NCBI GenBank assembly: GCA_017473865.1
Contig: JAFUJB010000017.1
Coordinates: forward strand, 1-33,969
Reading direction: 5' to 3'
From: Clostridia bacterium
Lineage (GTDB): Bacteria > Bacillota > Clostridia > Oscillospirales > CAG-272
Length of the DNA: 33,969 bases
Of the stretch, positions 8,654 through 30,227 are shown in pieces. The number at the start of each line of letters is the position of its first letter. The first letter of the stretch is position 1. A program made the position numbers and the translations under genes. The notes under the pieces are model-generated. The model did not search any database. It had not been told where the DNA came from and worked only from the letters and a program-made list of their open reading frames with translations.

Positions 8654-8709
8654 TGGAGCAGAGGGAGGAATTCGAACCCTCGTGCTGTTTCCAGCAAACT
8701 GATTTCGAG
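8654..8709 (-). pseudogene. Displaced 3' half of the host tRNA-Ser(CGA) (left attachment site)
   Basis: Minus strand reads: anticodon loop CTCGAAA (8703-8709), stem TCAG, a long variable arm (TGCTG GAAA CAGCA), a T-arm with TTCGAAT loop, acceptor CCTCTGC (8658-8664) and an encoded CCA (8654-8656). Beyond 8709 the sequence cannot form the 5' half of the anticodon stem, so the gene breaks at the loop. CCTCTGC pairs perfectly with GCAGAGG at 30221-30227, not with the GGAGAGA of the intact tRNA. Bases 8695-8709 are identical to 29882-29896. Confidence 0.85.
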
Positions 8710-8772
8710 CAGCTGTAAAGCAGGCTCTCTCCGTCCCTCACTATCCCTAATTTCCGCAAAAATTACCGAATT

Positions 8773-8843
8773 AGTGACCGCATTATTGCCCCTTCCGAGA
8801 AAAATGCACGGCTTTCTCAAGGCCAAAGGGACGGGCGGTCACT
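8773..8843 (-). repeat. Inverted repeat at the IME left end, downstream of the NERD gene
   Basis: AGTGACCGC (8773-8781) and GCGGTCACT (8835-8843) form a 9-bp dyad directly after the NERD stop. Inside lies 8802-8822, which is almost the same as 29952-29971 near the right end. It may be an integrase arm-site region or part of a terminator. Confidence 0.5.
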
Positions 8844-8844
8844 T

Positions 8845-9687
8845 TTATCCCAACTTAATGTAATCTAATTTACAAAGCGCGTATCTGTATTTGTATCCGT
8901 TGTCATTTACAACGATATAATCGTTTTCTCGGTTAACGCTAAAAACTCGTCCGCTAACCGTTTTGATTTTCAGCTCATCATAAGACCAGTGGTGAACGAT
9001 TGAGATCGAATCAATACCTTTTCGAGTAAGTACACCTTCCGGCGTTGTAAAGCGCAACGATTCGTCACAGATAATGCAGTGTAACGATTTTCCCCAAGAA
9101 TTGCAGTAAAGATAATCTGCGGCAATGCATCGGTCAAAAAATCTTTCCGCATTATTACTCCAAGATACTTTTCCGTCATTTTGAATGTGGTAGGTAAGAT
9201 CATCAATGTCATCGAACCATACGTTTTCGCTATAGGTTTCAATACGATCGGCTTCTTCGAAAAAGACTACGGAATTGACCCAAGCGTTTTCGGGATTTTC
9301 TTTTCTCAGTAAATAGATCGCTCGTCCGATTTGCTTGAAAGGAGACTTATGAATCTTGGTATGTATTTCATCTGTCCAGCGGTCACGCTTATATTGAATG
9401 AAGTCGCCGTCACGTTCAACGAGCTGACCTTTCCAGCGCTTGACCTCTATTGCAAATAGCTTGTTTTTATAGAGTATCAAACAATCAATCTCGGCATTTC
9501 CTTCCGAGGTTTGAATAATAATATTCTTTTTTATTTTGCAGCCAGGCAAACGCGACTCAATAGCATAGACGAATTCATCCTCGCCCCAATCACCGTACTT
9601 TTTTGCCTGCGTAGTATATGGAATCGAAGACTCGCCTATTCGCGCAAAGCCTATTTTAATTTTATGAAAAAAGCTTCGAAGTCCCAT
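8845..9687 (-). CDS. NERD-domain (nuclease-related) protein
   Basis: 280 residues, no membrane segment. The N-terminal 130 residues match the NERD fold: GDWGEDEFVYAI (32-43), then E66-x-D68 and E81-V-K83 in GNAEIDC...AIEVKRWKG, which are the D...ExK active-site positions of the PD-(D/E)xK nuclease superfamily. The remaining 150 residues contain a CIIC pair and a C-terminal beta-rich segment that I do not recognise. It is the leftmost IME gene, facing outward, with its own promoter at 9723-9751. NERD proteins are common in defence and mobile regions; the target is unknown. Confidence 0.85.
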   Translation of the reverse strand: MGLRSFFHKIKIGFARIGESSIPYTTQAKKYGDWGEDEFVYAIESRLPGCKIKKNIIIQTSEGNAEIDCLILYKNKLFAIEVKRWKGQLVERDGDFIQYKRDRWTDEIHTKIHKSPFKQIGRAIYLLRKENPENAWVNSVVFFEEADRIETYSENVWFDDIDDLTYHIQNDGKVSWSNNAERFFDRCIAADYLYCNSWGKSLHCIICDESLRFTTPEGVLTRKGIDSISIVHHWSYDELKIKTVSGRVFSVNRENDYIVVNDNGYKYRYALCKLDYIKLG

Positions 9688-9722
9688 AAGATTATCCCAA
9701 CCAAATAATATCTTGATGACTC

Positions 9723-9751
9723 ATTATATCATAATTTTATAAAAATTTCAA
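9723..9751 (-). promoter_or_regulatory. Promoter of the NERD gene
   Basis: Minus-strand TTGAAA (9746-9751), 17-bp spacer, TATAAT (9723-9728). It diverges from the promoter at 9763-9797, only 12 bases away. Confidence 0.75.
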
Positions 9752-9762
9752 TAGAGTCCCGA

Positions 9763-9797
9763 TTCTCTCTGGACTTTGCGTTTCTTTGTGATATCCT
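9763..9797 (+). promoter_or_regulatory. IME promoter module, copy 1
   Basis: TTCTCTCTGGACT with TGGACT (9770-9775) as -35, 16-bp spacer, TATCCT (9792-9797) as -10. The same upstream block occurs at 21731 and 26868; 18 bases (9758-9775) are identical to 26863-26880. It drives the HTH gene at 9829. Confidence 0.65.
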
Positions 9798-9828
9798 TTG
9801 TGCTGACAAAACAGAAAGGAGTCACACG

Positions 9829-10633: not shown

Positions 10634-10642
10634 TGCATATTA

Positions 10643-10676
10643 CCCTTCGGGAACACCACTCCCGAAGGGCTTTTCT
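10643..10676 (+). terminator. Intrinsic terminator after the HTH pair
   Basis: Perfect 10-bp stem CCCTTCGGGA / TCCCGAAGGG with a 7-base loop, followed by CTTTTCTTTT. Confidence 0.9.
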
Positions 10677-10764
10677 TTTCAGCTTATTATTGTTTCAAAA
10701 CCGTAAACGCGACCGAAAACTGCAAATTTTTTATGAAATATTGTAAATTAGGCATCCGCCTTGA

Positions 10765-10817
10765 TTGACAAATCACCTATCATAGTATATAATAATATAT
10801 GACTACAAATGATAGGT
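10765..10817 (+). promoter_or_regulatory. Consensus promoter with operator for the XRE-DUF3990 gene
   Basis: Perfect TTGACA (10765-10770), 17-bp spacer, TATAAT (10788-10793). A 9-bp inverted repeat ACCTATCAT (10775-10783) / ATGATAGGT (10809-10817) overlaps the spacer and reaches the SD. This is the arrangement expected for autorepression by the XRE domain encoded just downstream. Confidence 0.85.
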
Positions 10818-10825
10818 GGTATATC

Positions 10826-11671
10826 ATGAAAGAACTGATCAAAGCAATCCGCTCTGCGGCGAATATGAATCAGGAACAGTTTGCTTCTGCCCTCGGCACC
10901 ACTCCGCTTTCCATCAACCGCTGGGAAAACGGAAAGACGATGCCCAACCGCATGGCGCAGACTCAATTATATAATTTTTGTAAAGAACGCGAGCTCGATG
11001 TCGTTGAGATCATCGTAAACGCAAAAGAATATACAGATGAGAATCATAAGCTTGTTCTCTATCACGGCTCCAAGAAAGGCATTGACGGCGATATTGCTCC
11101 CATCAGCCGTGGAGAATGTGACTTCGGCAAAGGCTTTTATATGGGCACAACCACGCTCCAACCTTTGACCTTGGTTTGCAATGAAGATAAGCCCAAGTTC
11201 TATGCAGTTGAGCTCGATACGACCGACCTTAAGGTTCTGACCGTTGATATTGGCATGGATTGGGCAATGCTGATTGCCTACTATCGCAAGGAAATGGAAA
11301 GTGCCAAAGGCACACCTGTGTATGAAAAATACGCACATATGGCAGACGGTTACGATCTTATTATCGGCTATATCGCAAACGACCATATGTATACAGAGCT
11401 TTCCCGGTTCTTCAACAGAACTCTTACGGACGTAGCTTTGATCAATTGCCTCTCCGCACTTGATCTCGGCAAACAGTATGTTGCTATCAGCGAGAAGGCT
11501 TGCAAACAAATCAAGGTGCTCAAGGAGTATCCTTTGTCTCAGCTTGAGCTCGCATTGTTGAAGGACATGAGTGCCGAAAGAAGAAAAGAAGGTATCGCTC
11601 TTGCCGAGGAGATCGAGATAAAATACCGCCGCGAAGGAAAGTATTTCGATGAAATTTTAAGAGGTGAATGA
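10826..11671 (+). CDS. XRE-type HTH fused to DUF3990 (ADP-ribosyltransferase-like) domain
   Basis: 281 residues from the ATG at 10826, which has an AGGTGG SD; an upstream ATG at 10799 is too close to the -10 box. Residues 1-65 are an XRE helix-turn-helix (AANMNQEQFASALGTTPLSINRWENG). Residues 75-235 match DUF3990, a family related to ADP-ribosyltransferases: YHGS (79-82), DFGKGFY (99-105), DGYDLIIGYIAND (174-186) and QYVAISEKA (217-225). The usual HTEKAL ending is altered to ISEKAC. It overlaps the next gene's SD, and a self-matching operator lies upstream. Toxin with built-in repressor is the likeliest reading; activity is inferred. Confidence 0.8.
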   Translation: MKELIKAIRSAANMNQEQFASALGTTPLSINRWENGKTMPNRMAQTQLYNFCKERELDVVEIIVNAKEYTDENHKLVLYHGSKKGIDGDIAPISRGECDFGKGFYMGTTTLQPLTLVCNEDKPKFYAVELDTTDLKVLTVDIGMDWAMLIAYYRKEMESAKGTPVYEKYAHMADGYDLIIGYIANDHMYTELSRFFNRTLTDVALINCLSALDLGKQYVAISEKACKQIKVLKEYPLSQLELALLKDMSAERRKEGIALAEEIEIKYRREGKYFDEILRGE

Positions 11672-11672
11672 T

Positions 11673-12692: not shown

Positions 12693-14504
12693 ATGACAGG
12701 CGAAAAATTCACATTAATGCAATATTCTATCAGTGCGATCCTCGGCTTAATTGAAGCAGAAGATTTTGTTATTCCCGAAATACAGCGTCCTTTTGTTTGG
12801 AAAAGAAGTCAGGTCAGAGATCTTATTGACTCATTATATAACGGATATCCCACCGGTTACATAATCACTTGGAAGAACCCCGATGTGCAAACCAAAGATG
12901 GCGGCAAAGCTAACGGTAAAAAAGTTCTCATCGATGGTCAGCAGCGTATTACTGCTCTTATGGCGGCTATTGCCGGAAAGGAAGTTCTGGATGAGGATTT
13001 CAACCGAGACAGAATCAAGATTGCTTTCAATCCCCTTACCAAAGACAGCACCAAGCGTTTTGCGGTTCAGGATGCCTCACACTTGAAAGATAAAAAGTGG
13101 ATTCCCGATATCTCCGTTGTTTTTGATAGTACCTTTGATCCCTTTGATTTTGCATTGGAATACTGTGCAATCAATGAAGGCGTAAAACCTAATGATGTAA
13201 ATAAAGCGATTACCGAGCTTAAAGGCATCGCAAATCGTCAGATAGGTGTAATAGAGCTCGACCATTCTCTCGATATTGATGAAGTTACTGAAATATTCAT
13301 TCGTATCAACTCCAAGGGTACTGCGCTCAGTCAATCTGACTTCGTTATGTCTAAAATGGCTGCTGACACCGAACATGGCGGCAATATGCTCAGAAAGACC
13401 GTAGACTATTTCTGCCACCTTGCAGTTAAGCCCGAGTTTTATTCGCATTTGACGCATGATACCGAGTTCCAGAATTCAAAATACGCCTCAAAAATCAAAT
13501 GGCTCGCAAAAGATTATGATGACATATACGATCCCGATTACGGTGATATGCTTCGTGTTTCTTTTATGCATCAGTTCCGCAGAGGCAAACTTGCAGATCT
13601 CGTAAGTCTTCTGTCTGGTAGAGATTTCGAGACAAAAGAATACCGCGACGATATCGTTGACGAATCATATCTTAAGCTCGATGAAGGTATTCAAAACTTC
13701 ATAAATGAGTATAACTTCGCTCAGTTTATAATGGCAATCAAAGGCGCCGGATTTATCTCGCATAAATTACTGAATTCTGCGATGACTCTTGACTTTGCAT
13801 ATACCTTGTATTTGATGTTACTTGACGATCCGACCATTCCGAACGCGCAAATTAAGCGCTATGTTCAAAAGTGGTTTGTTATGTCCACGCTTACTTCCCG
13901 TTACATAGGTTCTCCCGAAACGGTTATGGACAGAGATATGAGAAGTATTGCAGAAAAGGGCTTCTTGAACTTCCTTGCAGATGTGGAAGCATCCTCGCTT
14001 TCTGATTCCTTCTGGACCGTTACACTGCCGCAGAATCTTGAAACATCGTCTGTAAACAGCCCTGCTTTCAATACATTTATTGCGGCTCAAATTAATCTTA
14101 ATTGCAATTCAATGCTTATGAACGGCACAAAAATCGCAGATCTTGTTAACATTTCCGGAGATGTGCATCACATTTTCCCGCGTGCATATCTCAAAAACAA
14201 CGGTGTAACAAACAAAACAAAATATAATCAAGTTGCAAACTACATCTATCTCGATACACAAGTCAACAAAGCCATCAGCGATGATGCTCCATCCGTATAT
14301 TTTACCAAAGCAAGACAGCAGTGTGAAACCAAGAAGATCGAGTTAGGCAATATTTCCGATGCAGATCTTCTTGCAACAAATCTTGCTGAAAACTGTATCC
14401 CGAGCAACATTGATACAATGGATGTGTCCGCATATGATGATTTCCTTCGTGAGCGCCGCAAGATGATGGCGGCATTGATTGAAAAATACTATAAGGGATT
14501 ATAA
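12693..14504 (+). CDS. DUF262-DUF1524 (GmrSD/BrxU-like) restriction nuclease
   Basis: 603 residues. The N-terminal DUF262 domain carries IPEIQRPFVWKRSQVRDLIDSL and the nucleotide-hydrolysis motif DGQQR (81-85), plus FIRINSKGTALSQSD (202-216). The C-terminal domain has an HNH-type core, DVHHIFPRAYL (490-500) with a later asparagine (N516), typical of DUF1524. In the GmrSD type IV restriction family, DUF262 senses modified DNA and uses nucleotide to control the DUF1524 nuclease. Here both lie in one chain, as in fused GmrSD and BrxU. An AAAAAGGAG SD precedes the ATG. Its substrate modification is unknown. Confidence 0.85.
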   Translation: MTGEKFTLMQYSISAILGLIEAEDFVIPEIQRPFVWKRSQVRDLIDSLYNGYPTGYIITWKNPDVQTKDGGKANGKKVLIDGQQRITALMAAIAGKEVLDEDFNRDRIKIAFNPLTKDSTKRFAVQDASHLKDKKWIPDISVVFDSTFDPFDFALEYCAINEGVKPNDVNKAITELKGIANRQIGVIELDHSLDIDEVTEIFIRINSKGTALSQSDFVMSKMAADTEHGGNMLRKTVDYFCHLAVKPEFYSHLTHDTEFQNSKYASKIKWLAKDYDDIYDPDYGDMLRVSFMHQFRRGKLADLVSLLSGRDFETKEYRDDIVDESYLKLDEGIQNFINEYNFAQFIMAIKGAGFISHKLLNSAMTLDFAYTLYLMLLDDPTIPNAQIKRYVQKWFVMSTLTSRYIGSPETVMDRDMRSIAEKGFLNFLADVEASSLSDSFWTVTLPQNLETSSVNSPAFNTFIAAQINLNCNSMLMNGTKIADLVNISGDVHHIFPRAYLKNNGVTNKTKYNQVANYIYLDTQVNKAISDDAPSVYFTKARQQCETKKIELGNISDADLLATNLAENCIPSNIDTMDVSAYDDFLRERRKMMAALIEKYYKGL

Positions 14505-14547
14505 CACTATTGCTCTATCTTTAGTTTCTTAAAAAGGAGAAAGCCGT

Positions 14548-17500
14548 ATGAGAACTGAAAACCAAATAGAAATGTCTTTTATCGAAAAGCTAAAAGACTT
14601 AAAATACACTTATCGCGATGATATTAGGGATAAAGCATCTCTTGAAGCAAACTTTAGAGAGAAATTCGAAAAATTGAACAAGGTTCATTTGAGCGATTCT
14701 GAATTTGATCGTTTGAAAGAAAGTATTATTACGGCTGATGTTTTTGATGCAGCAAAAAGCTTGCGCGAAACGAACACATTCAAGCGTGATGACGATACTC
14801 CTCTTCAGTATACAATCGTTAACACAACTGATTGGTGCAAAAATGACTTTGAGGTAGTGAATCAACTGCGTATTAACACAGACAATAGCAATCATAGATA
14901 CGATGTTATTTTGCTTATAAACGGTGTACCCGTCGTGCAAATAGAATTGAAAGCTCTTCAGGTTACCCCGAGACGAGCCATGGAACAAATTGTAGAGTAT
15001 AAAAACGATCCGGGAAATGGATATACAAATTCTCTCCTGTGCTTTATGCAGCTTTTCATCGTTAGTAATGAAAGCAATACCTATTACTTTGCAAACAATT
15101 CTAAGGAGCATTTCTGCTTTAATGCAGATGAGCGTTTCTTGCCTATATATCAATTGGCAGACGAAGATAACAAGAAAATCACTCATTTACATGATTTTTC
15201 TCAAATGTTGCTCCGTAAATGCGCCCTTGGACAATTGATCAGCAAGTATATGGTATTGGTTGCGAGTGAGAAGAAATTGATGATTATGCGTCCTTACCAG
15301 ATATATGCTGTTCGCGCAATTATGGATTGCATCGAACAAAACCGCGGAAATGGATATATTTGGCATACCACAGGAAGCGGAAAAACGCTCACCTCATTCA
15401 AAGCATCCACTCTTCTTAAAGACAATAAAAATATTGCAAAGTGTCTGTTTGTTGTAGATAGAAAAGATCTTGATCGGCAGACACGTGAGGAATTCAATAA
15501 ATTCCAAGAAGGTTGTGTTGAGGAAAACACGAATACCGAACGACTTGTCAAACGACTTCTCTCAGACAATTATCGCGACAAAGTTATTGTTACTACGATC
15601 CAAAAGTTAGGATTGGCGCTTGATGATGACAGCAAACGAAATCAAGCAAAAAAGAAAAAGGGGGAAATGACATACAAAGAGCGTTTAGCTCCTTTGCGCG
15701 ATAAGCGTATTGTCATTATATTTGATGAATGTCATCGTTCCCAGTTTGGTGAAAATCATAAGGCAATCAAAGATTTTTTCCCCAACGCACAGCTCTTTGG
15801 ATTTACGGGAACTCCCATCTTCGAGGATAATGCAACATACAAACAAATCGATGGAACAATAGGTTCTTATTCAACTACAAAGGATATTTTTGAAAAGGAA
15901 CTTCACGCATATACGATTACACATGCTATTGATGACAAGAATGTTTTGCGTTTCCATATTGATTATTTCAAACCAGATTCGGATGGAAAATCAATAAAGC
16001 CCTCTGATATTGCACACAAAAAAGCAGTCGTAGAAACGATCTTGTCAAAGCACGATATTGTTACCGCCGGAAGAAGATTCAATGCGATTTTAGCAACCTC
16101 TTCAATCAACGATGCAATAGAATACTATGATTTGTTTTCTTCTATGCAAGAAGAATATATTAAGAATACCGATAGTGACTTTGTCCCTTTGAATATTGCA
16201 TGTGTATTCTCTCCGCCCGCTGAAGGCAACAAGGATCTTCAGCAGATTCAAGATGATCTTCCTCAAGAGAAAATCGACAACTCCGTAGAGCCCGACAAAA
16301 AGAAAAAAGCGCTACAGAAAATTATGCTTGAGTATGATGAAAAATATGGCACAAATAGTAGCATTGGCGAGTTTGATGTGTACTATCAGGATATTCAAAA
16401 AAGAATCAAAGATCAACAGTATTCTAATACGGATTATCCGCACAAGAACAAAATCGATATTACCATCGTTGTTGATATGTTGTTAACTGGATTTGATTCA
16501 AAATTCTTAAACACCTTGTATGTAGATAAGAATTTGAAGCATCATGGACTTATTCAGGCTTTTTCGAGAACCAATAGAATTCTGAACGGTACAAAACCGT
16601 ATGGCAACATCCTTGACTTCAGAGGTCAGGAAAAAGAGGTAGACGAGGCGATTGCGCTGTTCTCAGGAGAACAAAACAGTTCTCGCGCGAAGGAAATTTG
16701 GCTCGTTGATCCTGCTCCTGTTGTTATCGAAAAATTTGATAAAGCAATCGATGCTCTTGAAAAATTCATGTCTTCTCAGGGCCTTGAATGCAAGCCGGAA
16801 GAAGTCGCAAATCTTAAAGGCGATATCGCACGTGGCGAGTTTATACAAAGATTTAAGGAAGTACAACGCTTTAAGACTCAGTTGGAACAGTATACCGAAC
16901 TGAAGGAAGAAGATGCAGCACGTATTGAAGAACTGTTGCCCAAAGATACGTTACGTGCGTTCCGAGGTGTATATATTGATACCGCGCAAAGATTGAGGGA
17001 ACAGCAAGGCAAGAGCAAAGAACGCAAGCCCGAAATTGATGATATTGACTTTGAATTCGTTTTATTCTCTTCCGCCATCATTGATTATGATTATATTATG
17101 GGGCTTATCTCTAAATATACTCAGAGTGAACCTAAGAAGCAGAAAATGAACAAACAACAACTTGTTGACTTGCTCTGTTCTTCTTCCAATTTAATGGATG
17201 AACGTGAGGATATTATTGCGTATATCAATACACTAAAAATTGGTGAAGCATTAAATGAACAAGAGATAAAAGATGGCTATCAAAAATTCAAGGCGGAAAA
17301 GAATGCTAATGCGATACTATTTATAGCAGAAAAGCATGGCATAGAGTTACAGGATCTCAATAATTTCATCAATGAAATCATTGATCGTATGATTTTCGAC
17401 GGAGAAAAATTGAGCGATTTGTTAGCTCCGTTAGAACTTGGTTGGAAAGCTCGAACCAAAAAGGAGCTTGAATTAATGGAAGATTTGATTCCGTTGTTAA

Positions 17501-17550
17501 AGCGTTTGGCAAACGGACATGAAATTGTGGGGTTGAATGCATATGAGTGA
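14548..17550 (+). CDS. hsdR: Type I restriction enzyme, R (translocase/endonuclease) subunit
   Basis: 1000 residues, normal for HsdR. The N-terminal nuclease domain has D119...E133-L-K135 (PD-ExK type). The SF2 translocase follows with TGSGKT (275-280), DECH (393-396) and TGTP (420-423), then a RecA-like second domain with LLTGFDSKFLN and QAFSRTNR. An AAAAAGGAG SD gives the start. It heads the operon hsdR-hsdS-ATPase-hsdM; cutting needs all three Hsd subunits and follows DNA translocation. All active-site motifs are intact. Confidence 0.95.
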   Translation: MRTENQIEMSFIEKLKDLKYTYRDDIRDKASLEANFREKFEKLNKVHLSDSEFDRLKESIITADVFDAAKSLRETNTFKRDDDTPLQYTIVNTTDWCKNDFEVVNQLRINTDNSNHRYDVILLINGVPVVQIELKALQVTPRRAMEQIVEYKNDPGNGYTNSLLCFMQLFIVSNESNTYYFANNSKEHFCFNADERFLPIYQLADEDNKKITHLHDFSQMLLRKCALGQLISKYMVLVASEKKLMIMRPYQIYAVRAIMDCIEQNRGNGYIWHTTGSGKTLTSFKASTLLKDNKNIAKCLFVVDRKDLDRQTREEFNKFQEGCVEENTNTERLVKRLLSDNYRDKVIVTTIQKLGLALDDDSKRNQAKKKKGEMTYKERLAPLRDKRIVIIFDECHRSQFGENHKAIKDFFPNAQLFGFTGTPIFEDNATYKQIDGTIGSYSTTKDIFEKELHAYTITHAIDDKNVLRFHIDYFKPDSDGKSIKPSDIAHKKAVVETILSKHDIVTAGRRFNAILATSSINDAIEYYDLFSSMQEEYIKNTDSDFVPLNIACVFSPPAEGNKDLQQIQDDLPQEKIDNSVEPDKKKKALQKIMLEYDEKYGTNSSIGEFDVYYQDIQKRIKDQQYSNTDYPHKNKIDITIVVDMLLTGFDSKFLNTLYVDKNLKHHGLIQAFSRTNRILNGTKPYGNILDFRGQEKEVDEAIALFSGEQNSSRAKEIWLVDPAPVVIEKFDKAIDALEKFMSSQGLECKPEEVANLKGDIARGEFIQRFKEVQRFKTQLEQYTELKEEDAARIEELLPKDTLRAFRGVYIDTAQRLREQQGKSKERKPEIDDIDFEFVLFSSAIIDYDYIMGLISKYTQSEPKKQKMNKQQLVDLLCSSSNLMDEREDIIAYINTLKIGEALNEQEIKDGYQKFKAEKNANAILFIAEKHGIELQDLNNFINEIIDRMIFDGEKLSDLLAPLELGWKARTKKELELMEDLIPLLKRLANGHEIVGLNAYE

Positions 17551-18793
17551 TAAAAAAACAATTCTTCCTAAACTTCGATTTCAGGAATTTAATTCTTATC
17601 CCGAGTGGGAAATTACAACATTAGGAGCGATTTCCGAGCCTATCGAAGAAAAAGTTGGCTCAAGAAATTGTATTCTTATGAGTGTTACCGCCGGAAAAGG
17701 ATTAGTGCCTCAGAAAGAAAAATTTGGAAGAGAAATAGCAGGTAATTCTTATAAGAATTATTACGTTATTAGAGAAAATGATTTTGCCTATAACAAAAGT
17801 GCAACAAAGCAATTTCCCGAAGGTTATATTGCTATGCTTACTGATTATGACGAAGCTGCATTACCTAATAGCATATTTACTTGTTTTAGAATAACTGAAA
17901 AAGAATGTGAACCCGCCTTTATTAATCATCTCTTTCAAAGTAATTATCACGGCAAATGGTTAAGAAAATATATTGAGGTCGGAGCACGTGCACATGGCTC
18001 TTTAAATGTTGATTGTAATTATTTGTGGAGTATGCCAATTGCCTTGCCCAAAAAGAAGGAACAGGTGAAAATTGCTGAGATTTTATCTGAAATTGATAAG
18101 CTTATTATTAGTGAAAGTTCTAAACTTGATTTTTTGCAAACCCACAAAAATGGGTTAATGCAAAAGTTTTTCCCTTCGTGCGAAGATTCTTTTCCAAAAC
18201 TTAGATTCAAGGAGTTTTTTGATAAAAGAATAGATTTCAAAAGCGGAGATAAACTTTTTGACCCTATAAGTAATAAAGATCACAAATGCGATTTACCAGT
18301 TTTAGCTATATCGCAAGAACATGGCGCCATCCCTCGAGAAAAAATCGATTATAACGTTTTTGTTTCTGATAAAAGTTTAGAAAGCTATAAAGTGGTTGAA
18401 ATAGGTGATTTCATAATTAGTTTGAGATCTTTCCAAGGAGGAATTGAATATTCCGTATATCGCGGTATATGCAGTCCTGCGTATATAATTTTGCGAAAGA
18501 AAATTGACATATGCGATCAGTATTTCAAATATTACTTCAAAACCAAAAAATTCATTGCAGACTTGAACAAAAATTTGGAAGGAATCCGAGACGGAAAAAT
18601 GGTAAGTTATAGCCAATTTTCTGAGTTGGTATTGCCAGTTCCAGATAAAAAAGAGCAACAAAAAATAGCCAATTGTTTATGTTCTGTCGACGATTTGATT
18701 AATACTCAAGCAACGAAGATTGAAGAATTGCGGAATCACAAAAAAGGACTACTTCAACAGCTGTTTCCCTCGTTTGAGGAGGTAATTAAATGA
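17543..18793 (+). CDS. hsdS: Type I restriction enzyme, S (specificity) subunit
   Basis: 416 residues from the ATG at 17543, 8 bases inside the end of hsdR; an in-frame ATG at 17537 is too close to the GGGG SD. The protein has two target-recognition domains (about 15-150 and 225-365), each followed by a conserved helical spacer: PLPKKKEQVKIAEILSEIDK type, and DKKEQQKIANCLCSVDDL. The phrases LPKLRF and FPKLRFKEF start the two halves, a typical internal duplication. It sets the two-part DNA target, which cannot be read from sequence. Confidence 0.9.
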   Translation: MSDKKTILPKLRFQEFNSYPEWEITTLGAISEPIEEKVGSRNCILMSVTAGKGLVPQKEKFGREIAGNSYKNYYVIRENDFAYNKSATKQFPEGYIAMLTDYDEAALPNSIFTCFRITEKECEPAFINHLFQSNYHGKWLRKYIEVGARAHGSLNVDCNYLWSMPIALPKKKEQVKIAEILSEIDKLIISESSKLDFLQTHKNGLMQKFFPSCEDSFPKLRFKEFFDKRIDFKSGDKLFDPISNKDHKCDLPVLAISQEHGAIPREKIDYNVFVSDKSLESYKVVEIGDFIISLRSFQGGIEYSVYRGICSPAYIILRKKIDICDQYFKYYFKTKKFIADLNKNLEGIRDGKMVSYSQFSELVLPVPDKKEQQKIANCLCSVDDLINTQATKIEELRNHKKGLLQQLFPSFEEVIK

Positions 18794-20112: not shown

Positions 20113-21719
20113 ACGAAAATCAACAAAAACAATTAGGCGCAACTCTTTGGGGCATAGCAAATAAGTTGCGCGGAGCGATGAACGCTGATGACTTCCGAGA
20201 TTATATGCTTTCTTTTCTCTTCCTCCGTTATCTTTCCGACAATTACGAGGAAGCCGTAAAAAAAGAACTCGGCAAGGATTATTTTGACTTAAAACAAACA
20301 GAGCCTTGGCGTGCATTGGCTTTGTGGTACAACAACAATAAAGATGATGTTACAGAATTTGAAAAGCAAATGCGCCGTAAAGTTCATTATGTTATTAAGC
20401 CTAATTATTTGTGGGGTTATATATATGAACTTGCTAAAACGCAAAGTAACGATCTCTTAAAAACACTGCAAGCTGGATTCAAATATATTGAAAACGAGTC
20501 ATTTGACAGTAAATTTCATGGGTTGTTCTCTGAAGTTAATCTTGATTCTGAAAAATTAGGAAAGAACTATTCTGCACGAAACACTATGCTTTGTTCGGTA
20601 ATAACCGAAATAGCGAAGGGGCTTTCTGAGTTCCCGAATGATTCAGATTTGTTAGGCGATGCGTACGAATATCTTATCGGTCAATTTGCCGCAGGTTCTG
20701 GCAAAAAGGCGGGTGAATTCTACACTCCTCAGCAAGTATCTACTATTCTTTCTCGAATCGTTACTCTGGATAGCCAAGATCCAAGCACCGGTAAAAAGAA
20801 ACGCTTAAAGAATGTGTTAGACTTTGCTTGTGGCTCGGGCTCTCTCTTGATAAATGTTAAAAAACAACTGGGATCAAACAATATAGGACAAATCTATGGG
20901 CAAGAAAAAAATATAACCACATACAACCTTGCTCGTATGAATATGTTGCTTCACGGACTCAAGGATTCGGAATTTCAGATATTCCACGGAGACTCTTTGG
21001 CAAATGATTGGAATTTGCTAAAAGAAATGAACCCGGCAAAGAAATTGCAATGTGATGCCGTGGTGGCAAATCCTCCCTTCAGTTTGAGATGGGAACCTAA
21101 AGATTCTATGAAAGAGGATTTCAGATTTAAGAGTTATGGGCTTGCACCGAAATCTGCGGCAGATTTTGCATTTTTGCTTCATGGTTTCCACTTCCTGAGT
21201 GATGAAGGAACAATGGCTATTATTCTCCCTCACGGTGTTCTTTTCCGTGGTGGCGCGGAAGAAACCATTCGCAAAAAGCTGTTGTTGGATGGAAATATCG
21301 ATACAATTATCGGTCTCCCCGCAAATCTTTTCTTCTCAACAGGAATCCCGGTATGTATTATTGTGCTTAAGAAGTGCAAAAAGTTTGATGACGTATTATT
21401 TATCAATGCAAGCAATTACTTTGAGAAAAGTAAACGGCAAAATGTTTTATTACCTGAGCACATTGATAAGATCGTTGAAACCTATCAATATAGAAAGGAA
21501 GAAGATAAGAAATACTCACGTCGTGTAACCTTAGAGGAAATTAAGAACAATGATTACAACCTGAATATTTCTCGTTATGTTAGCACAGCAAGCGTAGAAG
21601 AACCTATTGATCTGATTGAAGTAAGTAAAGAATTGGAGAAAATAGAATCGGATATCAAGAAAGCTAAAGAAGCTCATAATAAATTTTTAAGAGAACTCGG
21701 ATTGCCGGAGATAAAATAA
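20109..21719 (+). CDS. hsdM: Type I restriction enzyme, M (methyltransferase) subunit
   Basis: 536 residues. The N-terminal HsdM domain (GATLWGIANKLRGAMNADDF...FLFLRYLSDNYEE) is followed by the SAM-binding motif I LDFACGSGSLL (from D238, with the ACGSG loop) and the catalytic NPPF (321-324) of N6-adenine methyltransferases. The start overlaps the preceding ATPase stop (ATGA), showing translational coupling. hsdM is last in this operon, while it is usually first; a late modification gene after hsdR makes me expect other control of restriction on entry. Confidence 0.95.
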   Translation: MNENQQKQLGATLWGIANKLRGAMNADDFRDYMLSFLFLRYLSDNYEEAVKKELGKDYFDLKQTEPWRALALWYNNNKDDVTEFEKQMRRKVHYVIKPNYLWGYIYELAKTQSNDLLKTLQAGFKYIENESFDSKFHGLFSEVNLDSEKLGKNYSARNTMLCSVITEIAKGLSEFPNDSDLLGDAYEYLIGQFAAGSGKKAGEFYTPQQVSTILSRIVTLDSQDPSTGKKKRLKNVLDFACGSGSLLINVKKQLGSNNIGQIYGQEKNITTYNLARMNMLLHGLKDSEFQIFHGDSLANDWNLLKEMNPAKKLQCDAVVANPPFSLRWEPKDSMKEDFRFKSYGLAPKSAADFAFLLHGFHFLSDEGTMAIILPHGVLFRGGAEETIRKKLLLDGNIDTIIGLPANLFFSTGIPVCIIVLKKCKKFDDVLFINASNYFEKSKRQNVLLPEHIDKIVETYQYRKEEDKKYSRRVTLEEIKNNDYNLNISRYVSTASVEEPIDLIEVSKELEKIESDIKKAKEAHNKFLRELGLPEIK

Positions 21720-23253: not shown

Positions 23254-23259
23254 ATGCTC

Positions 23260-23532: not shown

Positions 23533-23559
23533 AGTTGTCATTTTGCAGTTTAGGTGTTT

Positions 23560-23985
23560 CAAAGTAAACAATTTGTTAATTGTCAAAAAAAGCGGTGGTC
23601 AAATCTCAAAAAAATGCCCAATAGAGGATGGAGGGGTTTTTCAGTAAATAATTTGTTAATTCTCCAAAAAATCTTCGTTCAAATCGAAAAAAGTCAGCAA
23701 TAAAGGATGAGGGTACATTTTATTAAGAAAAGTTTCGTCCAAGCGAAAAAATAGTGTGGAATATAAAGTGAGATCGTTTTTCTCAAAGAAAAGGTTGTTA
23801 AATTGCAAAAAAGTGTGGGATATAAAGTGGAGTCAAAATTAGCCTCGTCCAAATTCAAAAAAAGTGCCCAATAAAGGATAGAGGAATCTTTCCTAAAAAC
23901 TCAATAAAAGTCAGCAATAAAAGGTAGAAGTACTTTCCTAAAAAACAGAAAAAAGTGTGGAATATAAAGTGAGGGGTATAAAAAG
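23560..23985 (+). repeat. Degenerate iteron-like array upstream of the RepA-type gene
   Basis: Seven units centred near 23613, 23693, 23754, 23813, 23864, 23910 and 23955, spaced 80, 61, 59, 51, 46 and 45 bases. Each has an A-tract, then GTGnnnAATAAAGGATnGAGG or GTGTGGAATATAAAGTGAGG. Five units are preceded by a GTyCAAAT-like block. AGTAAAYAATTTGTTAATT occurs twice (about 23563 and 23643). No ORF spans the 500 bases. Position before a replication-type ATPase suggests an origin (oriV) or a leader controlling it. Confidence 0.65.
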
Positions 23986-24065: not shown

Positions 24066-25046
24066 ATGGACAAAGAAATGAAGTTGGTCTCGATCTCGGA
24101 GATCGAACTGCAAGAGGTGGAGTGGTTGTGGTATCCGTATATCCCGTTCGGGAAGATCACTATCATTCAAGGTGATCCGGGCGAGGGTAAAACGACGCTG
24201 GGGCTACGGCTCGCGGCGGCGTGCTCCAACGGTCACGGCTTTCCCGGTATGGAAGATCGCGCACCCATCAGCGTGATCTATCAGACTGCCGAGGACGGTC
24301 TCGGCGACACGGTGAAACCGAGGTTGATGGAAGCCCAGGCGAACGAAAATCTGATCTTCAACATCAGCGAAGAGGTGGACGTGCTAACGCTGAAGGACGA
24401 GCGCATTGAGGCGGCGATCAAAGCGACGGGCGCAAAGCTGATGATCTTCGATCCCATCCAAGGCTACGTTGGAGAGGACACCGACATTAACCGAGCAAAC
24501 GAGATCCGCACCGTGATGCGCGGTATTGCAAGGATCGCTGAGGAAACGGGTTGCGCCATTGTGTTTGTGGGGCATCTCAACAAGATGAAAGGCACGAACA
24601 GCGCGTACCGCGGTCTTGGCACCATCGACTTCCGTGCATCGGCGCGAAGCGTGCTTCTCGTCGGCAGACACCGCAAGACGCCAAACGTGCGCGTGATCGT
24701 TCACGACAAATCGTCTCTTGCGCCCGAAGGAAAATCGATGGCGTTCAATCTCGGTAACGAAGAGGGATTCCATTGGATCGACGGCTACGACAACATCACG
24801 GCAGACGAGCTTCTCTGCGGTGGCACGAGCGAAACGAAGACCGACCTTGCCGAGGATCTGATTCGGGATATGCTTTCCTCAGGCGAGTTCGTTCCTTCAG
24901 AAAAAATCTACGCCAAAGCAAAGGAGAAGGATATCTCACCGCGCACCGTCAACGAAGCAAAGACGCGCATCAAAGGTATCGAAACCAAGAAGCTCGGAAA
25001 GGGGTGGTCGTGGGCGATTCCTGAGAATGCAGACTGCACCGAATGA
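24066..25046 (+). CDS. RepA-like RecA-fold ATPase (AAA_25 type)
   Basis: 326 residues. Walker A GDPGEGKT (36-43) and Walker B LMIFDP (D129) lie in a RecA-like domain of the RepA/DnaB-related type (AAA_25). The stretch GCAIVFVGHLNKMKGTNSAYRG is the sensor segment of that family. The C-terminal 70 residues (LIRDMLSSGEFVPSEKIYAKAKEKDISPRTVNEAKTRI) look like a winged helix. Such proteins act as replicative helicases of plasmids or in replication of integrative elements. An AAGGAGG SD precedes the ATG. The iteron-like array directly upstream fits a replication module. Confidence 0.85.
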   Translation: MDKEMKLVSISEIELQEVEWLWYPYIPFGKITIIQGDPGEGKTTLGLRLAAACSNGHGFPGMEDRAPISVIYQTAEDGLGDTVKPRLMEAQANENLIFNISEEVDVLTLKDERIEAAIKATGAKLMIFDPIQGYVGEDTDINRANEIRTVMRGIARIAEETGCAIVFVGHLNKMKGTNSAYRGLGTIDFRASARSVLLVGRHRKTPNVRVIVHDKSSLAPEGKSMAFNLGNEEGFHWIDGYDNITADELLCGGTSETKTDLAEDLIRDMLSSGEFVPSEKIYAKAKEKDISPRTVNEAKTRIKGIETKKLGKGWSWAIPENADCTE

Positions 25047-25578: not shown

Positions 25579-25581
25579 GTG

Positions 25582-26568
25582 ATGGCAATCGTTAAAGCAA
25601 AGGCGGGCAAGGGTTCGCTCTCGGACGTGTTCAATTACGTGCTCGACAAAGAGAAGACCGACGACACGCTAATCTCAAGCAAGGACTGTATGGCAGAGAC
25701 GGCGCAAAAGGAATTCGAGCTGACCAAGCACCGCTTCGGCAAGACCGATGGAAGAACATACTTCCATATCGTGCAGTCCTTCTCACCCGAGGATGACATC
25801 ACGCCATACGAAGCAAATAATCTCGGCTTGGAGTTTGCGGGCTTCTTCGAGGGCTATCAGGTGCTCGTGGTCACCCATACCAACCGCGAGCATCTGCACA
25901 ATCACATCATCGTCAACTCGGTTTCCTATGAGAACGGCAAGAAGCTCCACATGGAGAAAGCCGATCTGCAGGCGCTGAAAGAATATTCCAACAAGGTCTG
26001 TTGCAAGAACGGACTGACCACCACCGAGACCGACACCCGTGCCGGCAAGATGCAAAAATGGAAGAAGGACTTGATCCACACGGCGTTCCTTGCACTTGCT
26101 TACACCGACAGCATCGAGGGCTTCATCGGTTATATGGAGAACCACGGCTACGGCGTGCGATGGGAAGCGGATCGAAAGTATATCACCTTTACCACGCCCG
26201 ACGGTATCAAGGTGCGCGACAACAAGCTCTTTGATGAGCGACTCTTAAAAGATAATCTTGAACTGTACTACGCTATGGGCGGTAGCCTCGGTCCGATGGC
26301 AAACGAGTATATTTTCTACAGGACACCCGAGCACGAGCCACACGCCAAGCAGACGGCGACCACGGGACTTATAAGTCTCATCGGAGATTTCCTCAGCATC
26401 GCTCCGCAGAGTGCTTCCTACACGCCACGGCAGCTCACCGAGATGGACAAGTGGGAGAAGGAACGCCTTGAAGAGATCCTCGGCAAGAAGATCTCACCCG
26501 AAGCCTTCGTGTGTTACTGCACTCGAGAAGAATATGAACAGCAGAGCGGACTATCGCTCAAAATGTAA
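25582..26568 (+). CDS. MOBP-type relaxase (MobA/VirD2 family)
   Basis: 328 residues from the ATG at 25582 (AAAGGAG SD; GTG at 25579 is a poorer choice). Residues 15-26 hold the probable nicking tyrosine (Y19 in FNYVLDKEKT). H62 in TYFHIVQSF and the HxHxH of EHLHNHIIVNSV (104-108) form the metal site of the relaxase domain. It cuts and carries one DNA strand at oriT. It is shorter than many MobA proteins and has no primase or helicase tail. Without a coupling protein or secretion genes nearby, transfer must rely on a helper. Confidence 0.9.
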   Translation: MAIVKAKAGKGSLSDVFNYVLDKEKTDDTLISSKDCMAETAQKEFELTKHRFGKTDGRTYFHIVQSFSPEDDITPYEANNLGLEFAGFFEGYQVLVVTHTNREHLHNHIIVNSVSYENGKKLHMEKADLQALKEYSNKVCCKNGLTTTETDTRAGKMQKWKKDLIHTAFLALAYTDSIEGFIGYMENHGYGVRWEADRKYITFTTPDGIKVRDNKLFDERLLKDNLELYYAMGGSLGPMANEYIFYRTPEHEPHAKQTATTGLISLIGDFLSIAPQSASYTPRQLTEMDKWEKERLEEILGKKISPEAFVCYCTREEYEQQSGLSLKM

Positions 26569-27029: not shown

Positions 27030-28214
27030 ATGAAAAGAATCACAGGACGACTCGCCGAGGACAAGGGCAAATACTATGCGGTGATCAATCTACCGACCGT
27101 CGACGGCAAGCGCAAGACGAAATGGCACACGCTGAATCTTGAAGCGAAGAAGGGCAACAAAAAAGAGGCACAGTACCGCCTCAACCAAATTCTCGACAAG
27201 TATAACGCGGGTGACGTGCATCTCGCAGAAACGATGACACACGCCGAGCGTGAGCGCAACCGACTTGCCAACACCAAGATGCTGGACTACCTTGACGAAT
27301 GGCTGGAGGGACATCAGCACGACATCGAGCGAGAGACCTACCACCAATACAAGCGCTATATCGACGGGCGCATCCGCGAGTTCTTCACGCCCCTTGACCT
27401 CACCGTCAAGGACTTGTCGGGGGATGAGATCAACGAGTTTTACACCTACCTTCGTAATGCTGGGCTGAAGGGCTCCACCGGTCAACGCTACCACGGCGTG
27501 CTTCATAAGGCGTTCAAGGATGCGGTAAAGCGACGGATCATACCGAGCAACCCAGTTGACCAAGCCAACCGACCGAGGAAGGAGCAGTTCATCGCCGCCT
27601 ACTACAACGCCGAGGAGGTGAAGCAGCTGCTCGAGCTGGTCAAGGATGACGAGATCTATATTCCCATCCTGCTTGCCGCTTACTATGGGCTCAGACGAAG
27701 CGAGGTAATCGGACTGAAGTGGTCGGCGATCGACTTCACCGAGAACACGCTGACCGTCCGTCACACCGTCCACTCCACCGAGGAAGGCATCGTCGCCAAG
27801 GACAGACTAAAAACAAAATCCTCCTACCGCACGCTGACGTTGGAGCCCTTCGTCAGAGGCGAACTGCTGAAGCACCGTGAGAAGCAGGAGCAGATGAAAA
27901 AGGTAATGCGCTCGGCGTACTCGAAGGAATACACCGACTACGTCTGCGTGGATGCACTCGGCAAGCTGTACGATCCCGACTTTGTCACCGGACACTTCGG
28001 ACAGCTTCTGAAGAAGCACAACCTGAAGAAAATACGCTTCCACGACCTTCGCCACTCCTGCGCCTCGGTGCTTCTTGCCCAAGGCGTTCCAATGAAGCAG
28101 ATCCAGGAATGGCTCGGACATAGCGATATGAGTACCACGGCGAATATCTATAGCCACCTTGATGCCGTCACCAAAGCGGACACCGGTGCGGCGATGAGTA
28201 AAGCGCTGGGGTGA
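27030..28214 (+). CDS. int: Tyrosine recombinase (Tn916-type integrase)
   Basis: 394 residues with an AAAGGAG SD. An arm-binding N-terminal domain (1-65) and a SAM-like core-binding domain (85-175) precede the catalytic domain: R222 in YYGLRRSEV, K263 in KTKSSYR, H338-x-x-R341 in HDLRH, H364 in WLGHSD and Y374 in ANIYSHL. All are intact. It should integrate and excise the IME; the attachment site here appears to be a tRNA-Ser anticodon loop. A terminator follows at 28233. Confidence 0.95.
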   Translation: MKRITGRLAEDKGKYYAVINLPTVDGKRKTKWHTLNLEAKKGNKKEAQYRLNQILDKYNAGDVHLAETMTHAERERNRLANTKMLDYLDEWLEGHQHDIERETYHQYKRYIDGRIREFFTPLDLTVKDLSGDEINEFYTYLRNAGLKGSTGQRYHGVLHKAFKDAVKRRIIPSNPVDQANRPRKEQFIAAYYNAEEVKQLLELVKDDEIYIPILLAAYYGLRRSEVIGLKWSAIDFTENTLTVRHTVHSTEEGIVAKDRLKTKSSYRTLTLEPFVRGELLKHREKQEQMKKVMRSAYSKEYTDYVCVDALGKLYDPDFVTGHFGQLLKKHNLKKIRFHDLRHSCASVLLAQGVPMKQIQEWLGHSDMSTTANIYSHLDAVTKADTGAAMSKALG

Positions 28215-28232
28215 GTCAATAACTAAAATGGC

Positions 28233-28262
28233 AAAGCCCGAGGTATGAACCTCGGGCTTTGT
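28233..28262 (+). terminator. Integrase terminator
   Basis: 12-bp perfect stem AAAGCCCGAGGT / ACCTCGGGCTTT with an ATGA loop. Its symmetric A/T ends could also stop the converging HNH-like gene. Confidence 0.9.
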
Positions 28263-28278
28263 TATGAAATTTTATTAG

Positions 28279-29562
28279 TTAGAACGCAAGTGTTGATTCG
28301 AAATAATTAATTGCAGAATCAAGCATAGTTTCAAATGTGTTCTCAGCGTCCATTTCAACATACCTTGAAAGAACTGTTTTTAGTTTTTCTTCTGTGAAAA
28401 CAAATTTTTCTCGGCAATCAAGAGCCTTCTGCATATTTTGAGTGAAAGACAAGGAAGGATCAAATAACTCTTTATTCAGAAATAGTTGTTCGAGAATAAA
28501 TACCGGGATGATGCGGTCTTCATGTTCATAATCAAACAATTGAGCAAGATTATAAAATCCATTTTTATATTTCGAAAAGATAGGTTTTATTTCTTTGATT
28601 CTATTGATCAAATATTCTTTTGTCAGATCGCGTTCACCTACATTTGATAATCGATTTTTTATTTCATCGCATAATATTGATAGCGCAGATGAACAGTCCA
28701 AAGAAGGAATGCTCGGTATGCCATATGTCCCAAACATATCACCTTTATTGCTTCCATCAACGTGATAACTATATACGTTGTAAACATTAGCGATAGAAAG
28801 ATTTTTAGTAGCGCTTTTACAGATTCTAATTTTATAAATTATTATCCCCCAAAAACCATAAATAACATATGTGTTTCCATCTATATCACAATACTCAAAC
28901 AACATATGAGATCCTGTTCTCGAAATGTGGTCCATTAATCCCCATGTTTGCGGACTTAGCACAATTTCGACAAAGTGATCTGTACTATCAGGATTTAAGA
29001 TGTAAGATACAATATCTTGATATTGGGTTTCGTCAAAATGTTCAATATCGTTTATAAAACAATGCCATTCGTATGCTATCTTTGCAACCGTATGTAACAT
29101 TTCATTAGAACAAAAAAGCGTGTGAATGTTTGAGCGTGCGATAATTGATACTTCGCTGGCATCAAGTATATTTAATTTATCAGCAGAAAATCCCTTTTGC
29201 TTTAATAAAGTTTCCGGATTGGCAACTAATACTTTGTTGCCGTTCTTATCGGTTGTTGGAAATATACGTTTAGATGATCCCAAAATGGAGGTATGATCAG
29301 AAATGCTAACATTATCGAATTTGTACTCTCCGATGTTTAATTCCGCATTATATCTAACAGGATCTCCATCACGTTCTGTTAAACCAAGTCTGTTTCTGAA
29401 GAATGCAAATTCAGAAATCATTTTTTTCTCGTAATTATCATTTGTAAACCCATTATGTGTTTTACAAACAAATGATTTTTTTACTTTAGCGCCTGTCATT
29501 GCATAGGGTATAATGTCCGAAACGGTTAAATCGTTTTCACAATTACAGTAAATACATTTCAT
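28279..29562 (-). CDS. HNH-like (zinc-ribbon type) protein
   Basis: 427 residues from the ATG at 29560-29562, which has an AAAGGAA SD; the upstream in-frame ATG at 29583 overlaps that SD. The N-terminus MKCIYCNCENDLTVSDIIP, then VCKTHNGFTNDNYE, follows the CxxC...(S/D)xxIP...CxxHN layout of HNH_5-like endonucleases, with H replacing the second cysteine pair in part. The remaining 350 residues are unrecognised and include no membrane segment. It faces the integrase and is probably IME cargo; a nuclease role in defence is inferred. No clear promoter is seen. Confidence 0.65.
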   Translation of the reverse strand: MKCIYCNCENDLTVSDIIPYAMTGAKVKKSFVCKTHNGFTNDNYEKKMISEFAFFRNRLGLTERDGDPVRYNAELNIGEYKFDNVSISDHTSILGSSKRIFPTTDKNGNKVLVANPETLLKQKGFSADKLNILDASEVSIIARSNIHTLFCSNEMLHTVAKIAYEWHCFINDIEHFDETQYQDIVSYILNPDSTDHFVEIVLSPQTWGLMDHISRTGSHMLFEYCDIDGNTYVIYGFWGIIIYKIRICKSATKNLSIANVYNVYSYHVDGSNKGDMFGTYGIPSIPSLDCSSALSILCDEIKNRLSNVGERDLTKEYLINRIKEIKPIFSKYKNGFYNLAQLFDYEHEDRIIPVFILEQLFLNKELFDPSLSFTQNMQKALDCREKFVFTEEKLKTVLSRYVEMDAENTFETMLDSAINYFESTLAF

Positions 29563-29588
29563 TAAAATAAATTCCTTTCTCATAGATT

Positions 29589-29622
29589 ATTCGAACTCTC
29601 GCGTAGTTACAGACAAACTGAT
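29589..29622 (-). pseudogene. tRNA-Ser 3'-half relic
   Basis: Plus-strand ATTCGAACTCTCGCG, a 10-base gap and CAAACTGAT match the T-arm, variable arm length and anticodon stem of both tRNA-Ser copies; the 10-base gap is the same in all three. The T-stem partner and the anticodon loop are lost. Orientation is the same as the other copies. It likely marks an older or alternative attachment site. Confidence 0.6.
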
Positions 29623-29689
29623 ACCTACTCAGTTTATTTGCGTACCTACCCATATCTATCCGTCCCTAAAAATAGGGTGTTTTTGATCA

Positions 29690-29718
29690 GCCTTGCATTT
29701 GCCTTGCACTGCCTTGCA
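29690..29718. repeat. Three tandem GCCTTGCA repeats (putative integrase arm sites)
   Basis: GCCTTGCA starts at 29690, 29701 and 29711, spaced 11 and 10 bases, one helical turn. Inverse copies (TGCAAGGC or TGCAAGGT) lie at about 29963 and 30056. A small hairpin CCCTA(AAAA)TAGGG with T-run is at 29664-29684. No gene is supported from 29563 to 29840. Confidence 0.6.
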
Positions 29719-29840
29719 AAAAACTGATAGGCAACCGAAAGACTGCAAAAAGCGCTTTTCTCAAAAGTGGGGAATGAAAGTTGAAAATCGGGCAAAATTG
29801 AAAGAAAAAGAGCCCAAAATCGACGATTTCGGGCTCAATG

Positions 29841-29929
29841 TGGCGGAGAGAGAGGGATTCGAACCCTCGTGTGCGTTAGCACAAACTGATTTCGAGTCAG
29901 CCCCGTTATGACCACTTCGATATCTCTCC
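29841..29929 (-). tRNA. tRNA-Ser(CGA), intact, inside the IME right end
   Basis: Minus strand: acceptor GGAGAGA (29923-29929) pairs with TCTCTCC; discriminator G; encoded CCA (29841-29843). The anticodon loop is CTCGAAA with anticodon CGA (UCG codons), stem CTGA/TCAG. A long variable arm (GTGC/GCAC) marks a class II serine tRNA, and the T-arm is GAGGG/CCCTC with TTCGAAT. No good promoter is found in the 150 bases upstream; transcription probably comes from 30259-30287. Confidence 0.93.
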
Positions 29930-30077
29930 GTATTTGATTGTGTTTGAATTTTGCACGGCTTTTGCAAGGCCGAAGTTGAAATGCTGTCATCCAAAATTCA
30001 AGAAAAATGAAGCATTTGCGAGATATTGCGAGAAAACAAGAGCTTTTGCAAGGTGCAGAGTGACAAGCTCGGCTACC

Positions 30078-30227
30078 TTTCGAGTCAGCCCCGTTATGTC
30101 CTGTTGCGGTGCCCGAAATTTTCTGCTTGCTGTTCGCTTCGCAAAATTTCGACCGCTGCCACTCCTCTTTGCTCGCTTCATCTGCCACCGGCAGCGCTCG
30201 CAAACGTCCCCACTTCAATACCTCTGC
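30078..30227 (-). pseudogene. 5' half of the host tRNA-Ser(CGA), itself interrupted by 111 bp
   Basis: The 5' piece (30210-30227) reads GCAGAGGTATTGAAGTGG, nearly the start of the intact tRNA. The next piece (30078-30098) is 21 bases identical to 29890-29910 (D-loop to anticodon loop). Between them are 111 bases (30099-30209) where the intact tRNA has one. Joined to 8654-8709 it completes the acceptor stem (7/7 pairs) and anticodon stem (GCTGA/TCAGT). Confidence 0.8.

Follow-up and report, generated by a model that had tools for sequence, protein, structure and literature searches.

A mobilizable element that splits a tRNA-Ser(CGA) gene in a Clostridia genome and probably supplies a complete replacement copy

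The split tRNA-Ser(CGA) gene and the surrounding locus

The window described here is a stretch of 33,969 nucleotides (nt) that makes up an entire contig (C11, JAFUJB010000017.1) of a 1.31-Mb, 70% complete genome of a Clostridia bacterium (GCA_017473865.1). It contains an element of 21,375 bp lying between the two halves of a host transfer RNA (tRNA) gene, tRNA-Ser(CGA); the element encodes a tyrosine recombinase (integrase) and a relaxase, and is classed below as an integrative mobilizable element (IME). Genomes and loci are labelled with G- and L-numbers, in which G000 is the window's own genome and L067, L069 and L300 correspond to G431, G433 and G479. The features from which the argument is built are as follows.

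30259–30287, minus strand: promoter-like site TTGCAA-N17-TATAAT on the host side, upstream of the 5' stub (score 10.5 of 12.5; the leader scores 8)
30210–30227, minus strand: 5' stub of the host tRNA-Ser(CGA), piece 1, from acceptor GCAGAGG to the GG of the D-loop; pairs 7/7 with 8658–8664
30099–30209, minus strand: structured, tRNA-associated repeat of 111 bp in the D-loop of the stub, assigned from copies near tRNA genes in relatives and from covariation
30078–30098, minus strand: 5' stub, piece 2, ending in the core CTCGAAA (30084–30078); right end of the element
29930–30077, minus strand: leader of the element, 148 nt, a putative attP arm; 86–93% identity in related elements of other genomes
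29841–29929, minus strand: complete, apparently element-borne tRNA-Ser(CGA), acceptor GGAGAGA/TCTCTCC (ARAGORN; Rfam RF00005, 54.3 bits)
29808–29839, minus strand: terminator-like hairpin followed by a T-run, 3' of the complete tRNA (free energy −18.3 kcal/mol)
8657–8709, minus strand: displaced 3' half of the host tRNA-Ser(CGA), beginning with the core CTCGAAA (8709–8703); left end of the element

Read on the minus strand, the stub begins GCAGAGG...GAAGTGG at 30227–30210 and resumes as CATAACGGGGCTGA-CTCGAAA at 30098–30078, and the 3' half runs CTCGAAA-TCAGT...CCTCTGC at 8709–8658. Placed together, the two pair at 7/7 acceptor positions, all Watson-Crick, and at 5/5 positions of the anticodon stem (four Watson-Crick and one G-T), whereas the acceptor of the intact tRNA, GGAGAGA, pairs with the displaced CCTCTGC at 5/7. 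Beyond CTCGAAA the right junction reads GGTAGCC and not TCAG, so the stub stays incomplete. An earlier note, made from the letters of this DNA, had described both pieces and proposed that one tRNA-Ser(CGA) was split by an integrated element at the anticodon-loop core, with halves that belong to each other instead of to the intact tRNA and that are left unrestored. The described letters are all present, the same layout is repeated in six other elements, and the interpretation is supported on each of these points; the split itself is real. That reading missed the carriage of the intact tRNA by the element, the plan common to the family, and the second break in the D-loop of the stub.

The 3' half looks decayed, judging from its discriminator T (G in the intact gene) and one G-T pair in its T-stem. 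Joining the window halves, as the earlier note had proposed, gave no tRNA call in ARAGORN with the 111-bp repeat in place, and the only tRNA that the program reports in the window is the tRNA-Ser(CGA) at 29841–29929 on the minus strand. Six hits of class II length were obtained in the window's genome (Ser CGA, UGA, GGA and GCU, plus two Leu), which leaves the copy in the element as the sole tRNA-Ser(CGA) found in a genome that is 70% complete.

Five loci of other genomes (L066, L067, L069, L070 and L073) carry integrases 98–99% identical to that of the window, and in these the stretch from stub to tRNA is 86–93% identical over 136–149 aligned nt. The stub acceptors are GGAGACG in L066, a shortened GCAGAGA in L067, GGAGAGA in L069 and L070, and GGAGAGG in L073. 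The acceptor of the intact tRNA is the window's GGAGAGA in L067, L069 and L070 (3/5), GCAGAGG in L066 and GGAGGTG in L073. Judged from such comparisons, the intact tRNA-Ser(CGA) looks like a gene carried by the element, that is, a replacement of the whole gene.

Displaced halves, family plan and uninterrupted genes

Displaced halves were searched for where contigs reached the far end of the element, using a loose scan that tolerates a changed T-stem, and seven elements were resolved. The distance between stub and half is 21.4 kb in the window, 91.7 kb in G315, 67.1 kb in G126, 27.3 kb in G403, 40.0 kb in G447 (Lachnoanaerobaculum sp. OBRC5-5) and 15.0 kb in G449, and G452 (Faecalibacterium hattorii APC922/41-1) has two displaced halves, at 3.6 and 22.1 kb. 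No stub-half pair was found in the other 14 fetched (G431, G433, G432, G051, G204, G278, G036, G402, G317, G227, G389, G438, G439 and G448), several of whose contigs end early. Each of the seven stubs pairs with its own displaced half at 7/7 acceptor and 5/5 stem positions, giving 84/84 positions with G-T counted, and in a permutation test the true assignment alone, 1 of 5,040, reaches this score. The acceptor of the intact tRNA pairs less well with the displaced half (4–6 of 7) in six of the seven, G449 being the one that does not discriminate, and in G126 the anticodon stem fits the stub as well. ARAGORN calls the joined halves of G126, G315, G447, G449 and G452 tRNA-Ser(CGA).

Two of these elements have a more complex structure. 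The intact tRNA of G403 stands behind two stubs, the second of which (GGAGGGC, stem AACGA) matches the displaced half at 27.3 kb. A second integrase is situated about 0.2 kb from this half, and the arrangement is most simply read as the landing of one element in another's replacement tRNA. In G452 (C36, 125779–148406) both displaced 3' halves share the acceptor and stem for one stub; the outer half borders a flank conserved in relatives.

The family was surveyed through its integrase, taking the best 80 of 236 loci from a contig search and 30 from a genome search, which together with the window were reduced to 99 loci distinct by a 260-bp stretch (98 others). In this reduction L066 and L073 were replaced by shorter duplicates, L147 and L151, that end before the tRNA and were counted as having none. 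An intact tRNA on the expected strand lies within 2.6 kb of the integrase gene at 84/98 other loci, and comprises 71 Ser-CGA, 5 Ser-UGA, 4 Leu-CAA, 3 Leu-UAA and 1 Leu-CAG. Ten of the 14 loci without a tRNA have 1.5 kb or less of sequence past the integrase gene; L147 and L151 are two of these ten, with tRNA and stub present in the longer L066 and L073, and in L133 tRNA and stub lie further off. At 72 of the 85 loci with a tRNA, the window included, a 5' stub is present whose end falls at the anticodon loop (71/84 without the window); one of the 72, in L139, is perhaps a false hit in view of its odd acceptor. Core and intact tRNA are separated by 127–178 nt in 69/72, with 33, 250 and 341 nt in the other three. 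The plan common to the family is a stub, a leader of about 150 nt, a complete tRNA, and an integrase gene in the opposite orientation. Stub and intact acceptor are identical at just 21/72 loci, in G402 they come from different tRNA-Ser sequence classes, and more than one stub (two or three) occurs at 13 loci.

Paired direct repeats are the typical look of integrase arm-type sites, and it is for their resemblance to these that the leader is read as an attP arm. An exact direct repeat of at least 8 nt occurs in 58/69 leaders compared to 5.2% of shuffles (for example AGTTCTCTCCATCAGTTCTCTCC), and in 52/69 the repeats start 75–90 nt from the core with a period of 11–13. In the window the corresponding repeats are TCTCGCAA at 30033–30026 and 30023–30016. 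Sigma-70-like promoters were scored by a plain consensus count with a maximum of 12.5. A score of at least 10 is reached at 35/59 single-stub loci within the 150 bp of host sequence that precede the stub (shuffles: mean 2.1, maximum 5) and within the leader at 2/59 (shuffles: 0.9, maximum 4), a contrast that suggests promoter capture by the element. Hairpins of −8 kcal/mol or stronger lie 3' of the element tRNA in 62/69.

The earlier note had suggested looking in relatives for an uninterrupted tRNA at this locus, and the equivalent was found in Faecalibacterium. Among 31 genomes of that genus (including F. hattorii), a match runs through the junction into the downstream flank in G455, G466, G464, G479 and G468. 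In four of these (G455, G466, G464 and G468) the counterpart of the split F. hattorii gene is a single unbroken tRNA-Ser(CGA) that has the same acceptor, GGAGATG, and no stub occurs within the fetched 3 kb. G455 has, side by side, the flank of the upstream gene (84% over 1,142 bp), the tRNA (99% over 98 nt) and the first part of the downstream flank, whose remainder follows after about 1.1 kb. The loci compared contain no integrase match. In G460, G480, G454 and others the stub and the 3' half are matched apart, hence elements at this gene are read as common in the genus. In G482, the only other genome found for the genus of G126, the upstream flank (75–81%) precedes an uninterrupted tRNA-Ser(CGA) whose acceptor differs from that of the split gene.

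Proposed mechanism and competing explanations

It is proposed that the element recombines into tRNA-Ser(CGA), with the 7-bp anticodon loop CTCGAAA serving as the crossover core and the integrase presumably responsible, so that the host gene would persist as two pieces, a 5' stub and a 3' half displaced from it. It would stay split because the tRNA sequence is not carried on past the core by the attachment site. As compensation the element would bring a complete tRNA-Ser(CGA), oriented the same way and placed 148 nt inside its right end behind the presumed attP arm. Transcription from the host tRNA promoter would likely read through the stub and leader into the element tRNA, which is followed by the terminator-like hairpin. 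As the replacement tRNA carries the same anticodon loop, it could become the landing site for a next element, giving rise to nested stubs. That a 21,375-bp IME split the host gene at CTCGAAA and supplied its own complete copy is assigned a probability of roughly 0.8. The broader proposal is a 'break and replace' strategy in a large integrase family, mostly of gut Clostridia, in which the host gene is destroyed and a promoter-poor tRNA lives off the host promoter, with an allele swap, dependence of the host and the landing site passed on; this is held to be only slightly better than an even bet.

A number of observations weigh against these proposals. No uninterrupted gene was found at the window locus itself through either flanking gene: four same-genus loci of the impB/mucB/samB (IMS) gene have no adjoining tRNA, and for the cytidylate-kinase-like flank ARAGORN reported no tRNA in any of the 24 loci scanned out of 29 others (about 1.5 kb on each side, less at contig ends), a search that failed because synteny is not kept. 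The uninterrupted tRNA of G482 has the acceptor GGAGCGG, compared to GGACAGG in the split gene of G126. The stub scan found none in 13/85 loci; of the 12 viewed by eye, L148, L090, L106, L118 and L130 show a decayed or other-class stub, L072, L078, L107, L140 and L170 have a promoter directly before the tRNA, and neither pattern is clear in L150 and L171. The surveyed loci are not independent, as they are mostly metagenome-assembled genomes and distinct only by the 260-bp stretch. The direct repeat of the window's leader is shorter than most and spaced differently. Lowering the promoter threshold to 9.5 narrows the contrast to 40 host sides versus 14 leaders of 59, a TTGAT-N16-18-TANNNT motif occurs in 18/69 leaders (shuffles: 0.86, maximum 4), and a terminator-like hairpin of −8 kcal/mol or stronger lies within 29/69 leaders. 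Because such motifs and weak terminator-like hairpins occur in leaders, promoter capture is not universal, and some elements may use a transcription start of their own. Lastly, G479 (L300, 1275–1592) has a stub and, about 225 nt beyond it, an intact tRNA-Ser(CGA) with an identical acceptor and a host-type downstream flank, and no integrase match in the locus; the arrangement does not follow from the simple model and is maybe the scar of a lost element.

The alternative that survives best is ordinary tRNA-targeting integration, in which the intact tRNA at 29841 would consist of the host 5' half joined to a 3' half from the element, and the outer stub would be an unrelated duplicate. Described tRNA islands restore their target in this manner, as far as the available parts of two sources indicate (PMC4383910, PMC8371274), and the stubless family members with a promoter directly before the tRNA fit it as well. 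The displaced half should then pair with the intact acceptor, and it instead prefers the outer stub (7/7 as opposed to 5/7); in G126 the anticodon stem also sides with the stub, and in G402 the two belong to different tRNA-Ser classes. Ordinary restoration is consequently considered unlikely for this locus.

Next in standing is a tandem duplication in the host that made both stub and intact tRNA, with an element inserting nearby without bringing a tRNA, and it draws on the 111-bp repeat in the D-loop of the stub. A second copy of this repeat occupies the D-loop of an incomplete tRNA-Ser(UGA) 5' of the intact gene in the window's own genome (G000:C7, 67162–67308). From a table read by eye, 28/97 genomes match inside the insert and 65/97 match anywhere, the remainder falling in the tRNA part. 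The copies inspected are mostly within partial tRNA-Ser genes and in some cases tRNA-Pro or tRNA-Met, are sometimes in tandem, and usually lie upstream of the intact gene, with downstream positions in L046 and L059. An alignment of 19 copies folds with 19 predicted pairs, 9 of which show substitutions of both partners in at least one copy. No Rfam family matched the repeat in the stretches searched, and a T-box origin was dropped for lack of an Rfam match. The insert may represent a new mobile repeat, or a new RNA, associated with tRNAs. As a separate observation, a Gut-1 RNA (RF01706, 63.7 bits) lies at L002:1245–1319 (G000:C7), just 3' of the tRNA-Ser(UGA) with the repeat-bearing partial copy.

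Repeat-bearing partial tRNA-Ser copies upstream of intact tRNA-Ser genes, a window stub that carries the repeat, and the arrangement in G479 speak for tandem duplication. The spacers at loci with such copies resemble upstream host sequence (L038 and L039), whereas element loci have element sequence conserved across genomes, and the displaced halves lie 15–92 kb away (in G452 also 3.6 kb). Because L070 has a clean stub in addition to, and apart from, a repeat-bearing copy, the repeat is regarded as separate from integration. A duplication origin for the stub is accordingly thought improbable.

An assembly artefact of the metagenome bin is suggested by the fact that the window amounts to an entire contig in a genome of 70% completeness, but the same layout appears in the strain records of Lachnoanaerobaculum sp. 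OBRC5-5 and F. hattorii APC922/41-1, which makes this explanation very improbable. A true split tRNA gene with two transcripts joined in trans, to which the presence of two complementary, widely separated halves in the same genome might point, is scarcely credible given the complete tRNA-Ser(CGA), the element genes between the halves, the 111-bp insert in the 5' half and substitutions in the 3' half, and a gene in one piece in relatives of another split host.

Element content and relation to known systems

Further features between the tRNA halves are listed below.

12693–21719, plus strand: cargo comprising a GmrSD-type protein and type I restriction-modification genes (R, S, an AAA_13 protein and M), from Pfam
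24066–25046, plus strand: AAA ATPase (PF13481, 1e-24)
25579–26568, plus strand: MobA/VirD2-like relaxase (PF03432, 1.5e-34)
27030–28214, plus strand: tyrosine recombinase, the integrase (PF00589, E 1.3e-25, residues 194–378)
28279–29583, minus strand: open reading frame (ORF) of 434 amino acids (aa) beside the tRNA, of unknown family, without a Pfam or NCBIfam match
29589–29632, minus strand: decayed fragment resembling a tRNA-Ser 3' half, between tRNA and integrase gene (repeat family D4; 86–94% in L067, L069 and L070)

With an integrase, a relaxase, an AAA ATPase, a type I restriction system and a GmrSD-type protein between the tRNA halves, the element is classed here as an IME on the basis of its predicted genes. 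It has an integrase and its own relaxase without a complete conjugation apparatus: no secretion-system families or conjugation genes were recognised among the 20 window proteins scanned, smaller ORFs falling outside the scan. The 434-aa ORF, situated between the integrase gene and the tRNA, has a CxxC motif near its start and no nucleotide match in the related elements L067 or L070. The fragment at 29589–29632 is possibly the fossil of an earlier nested insertion. A helix-turn-helix plus DUF3990 protein at 10799–11671 adjoins the restriction cargo, and degenerate A-rich direct repeats (families D5, D7, D8, D14 and D17) cluster at 23552–23973, 5' of the AAA ATPase gene, where they possibly represent iterons or a transfer origin. 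Outside the element, MATE and cytidylate-kinase-like genes lie on one side and the IMS gene on the other, and repeats of 92–109 nt (families D1 and D2) are located near both contig ends (2943–3212 and 33878–33969).

tRNA genes are common landing sites of mobile DNA, which cells are usually said to tolerate because a carried fragment repairs the gene. Tycheposons are likewise elements with a tyrosine recombinase and a tie to tRNA genes, and in this respect they resemble the window element. The tRNA islands mapped by Islander share with it the tyrosine integrase, the tRNA target, the crossover in the anticodon loop and a displaced tRNA fragment marking the far end, here at 8709–8657. They differ in that a tRNA gene fragment in attP regenerates the target; no fragment of the element regenerates the disrupted tRNA at the junction in the window, where instead a separate whole gene lies about 150 nt inside.

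The IMEs with a single tyrosine recombinase treated in a review (PMC5704250) are alike in combining an integrase, a relaxase and cargo; in the available part of that review the target is not disrupted, unlike the gene described here. A review of archaeal integrases describes, in the part available, reconstitution of an intact tRNA copy (PMC8371274). The pTN3-like integrases covered in the same part likewise target a tRNA and alter its source of transcription after integration; the difference is that the original gene stays broken in the present case. Within the accessible portions of PMC5478533, PMC3119063 and PMC3202238, which concern complete tRNA genes, this design is not described, and those of PMC9897764 and PMC10872708 contain nothing resembling replacement of a whole tRNA. 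No description of a complete carried replacement tRNA was found in the partly available literature searched, from which the original tycheposon paper and Williams 2002 were absent, and priority for the whole-tRNA replacement design is not certain.

If the proposed reading is true, a core translation gene would be tied to a mobile element, with a whole foreign copy taking over from the broken gene. It would explain tRNA stubs that annotation may misread, and would mean that such elements are hidden from island finders that expect a regenerated target. Capture of the host promoter, and any stabilising effect of this on the element, would also become testable.

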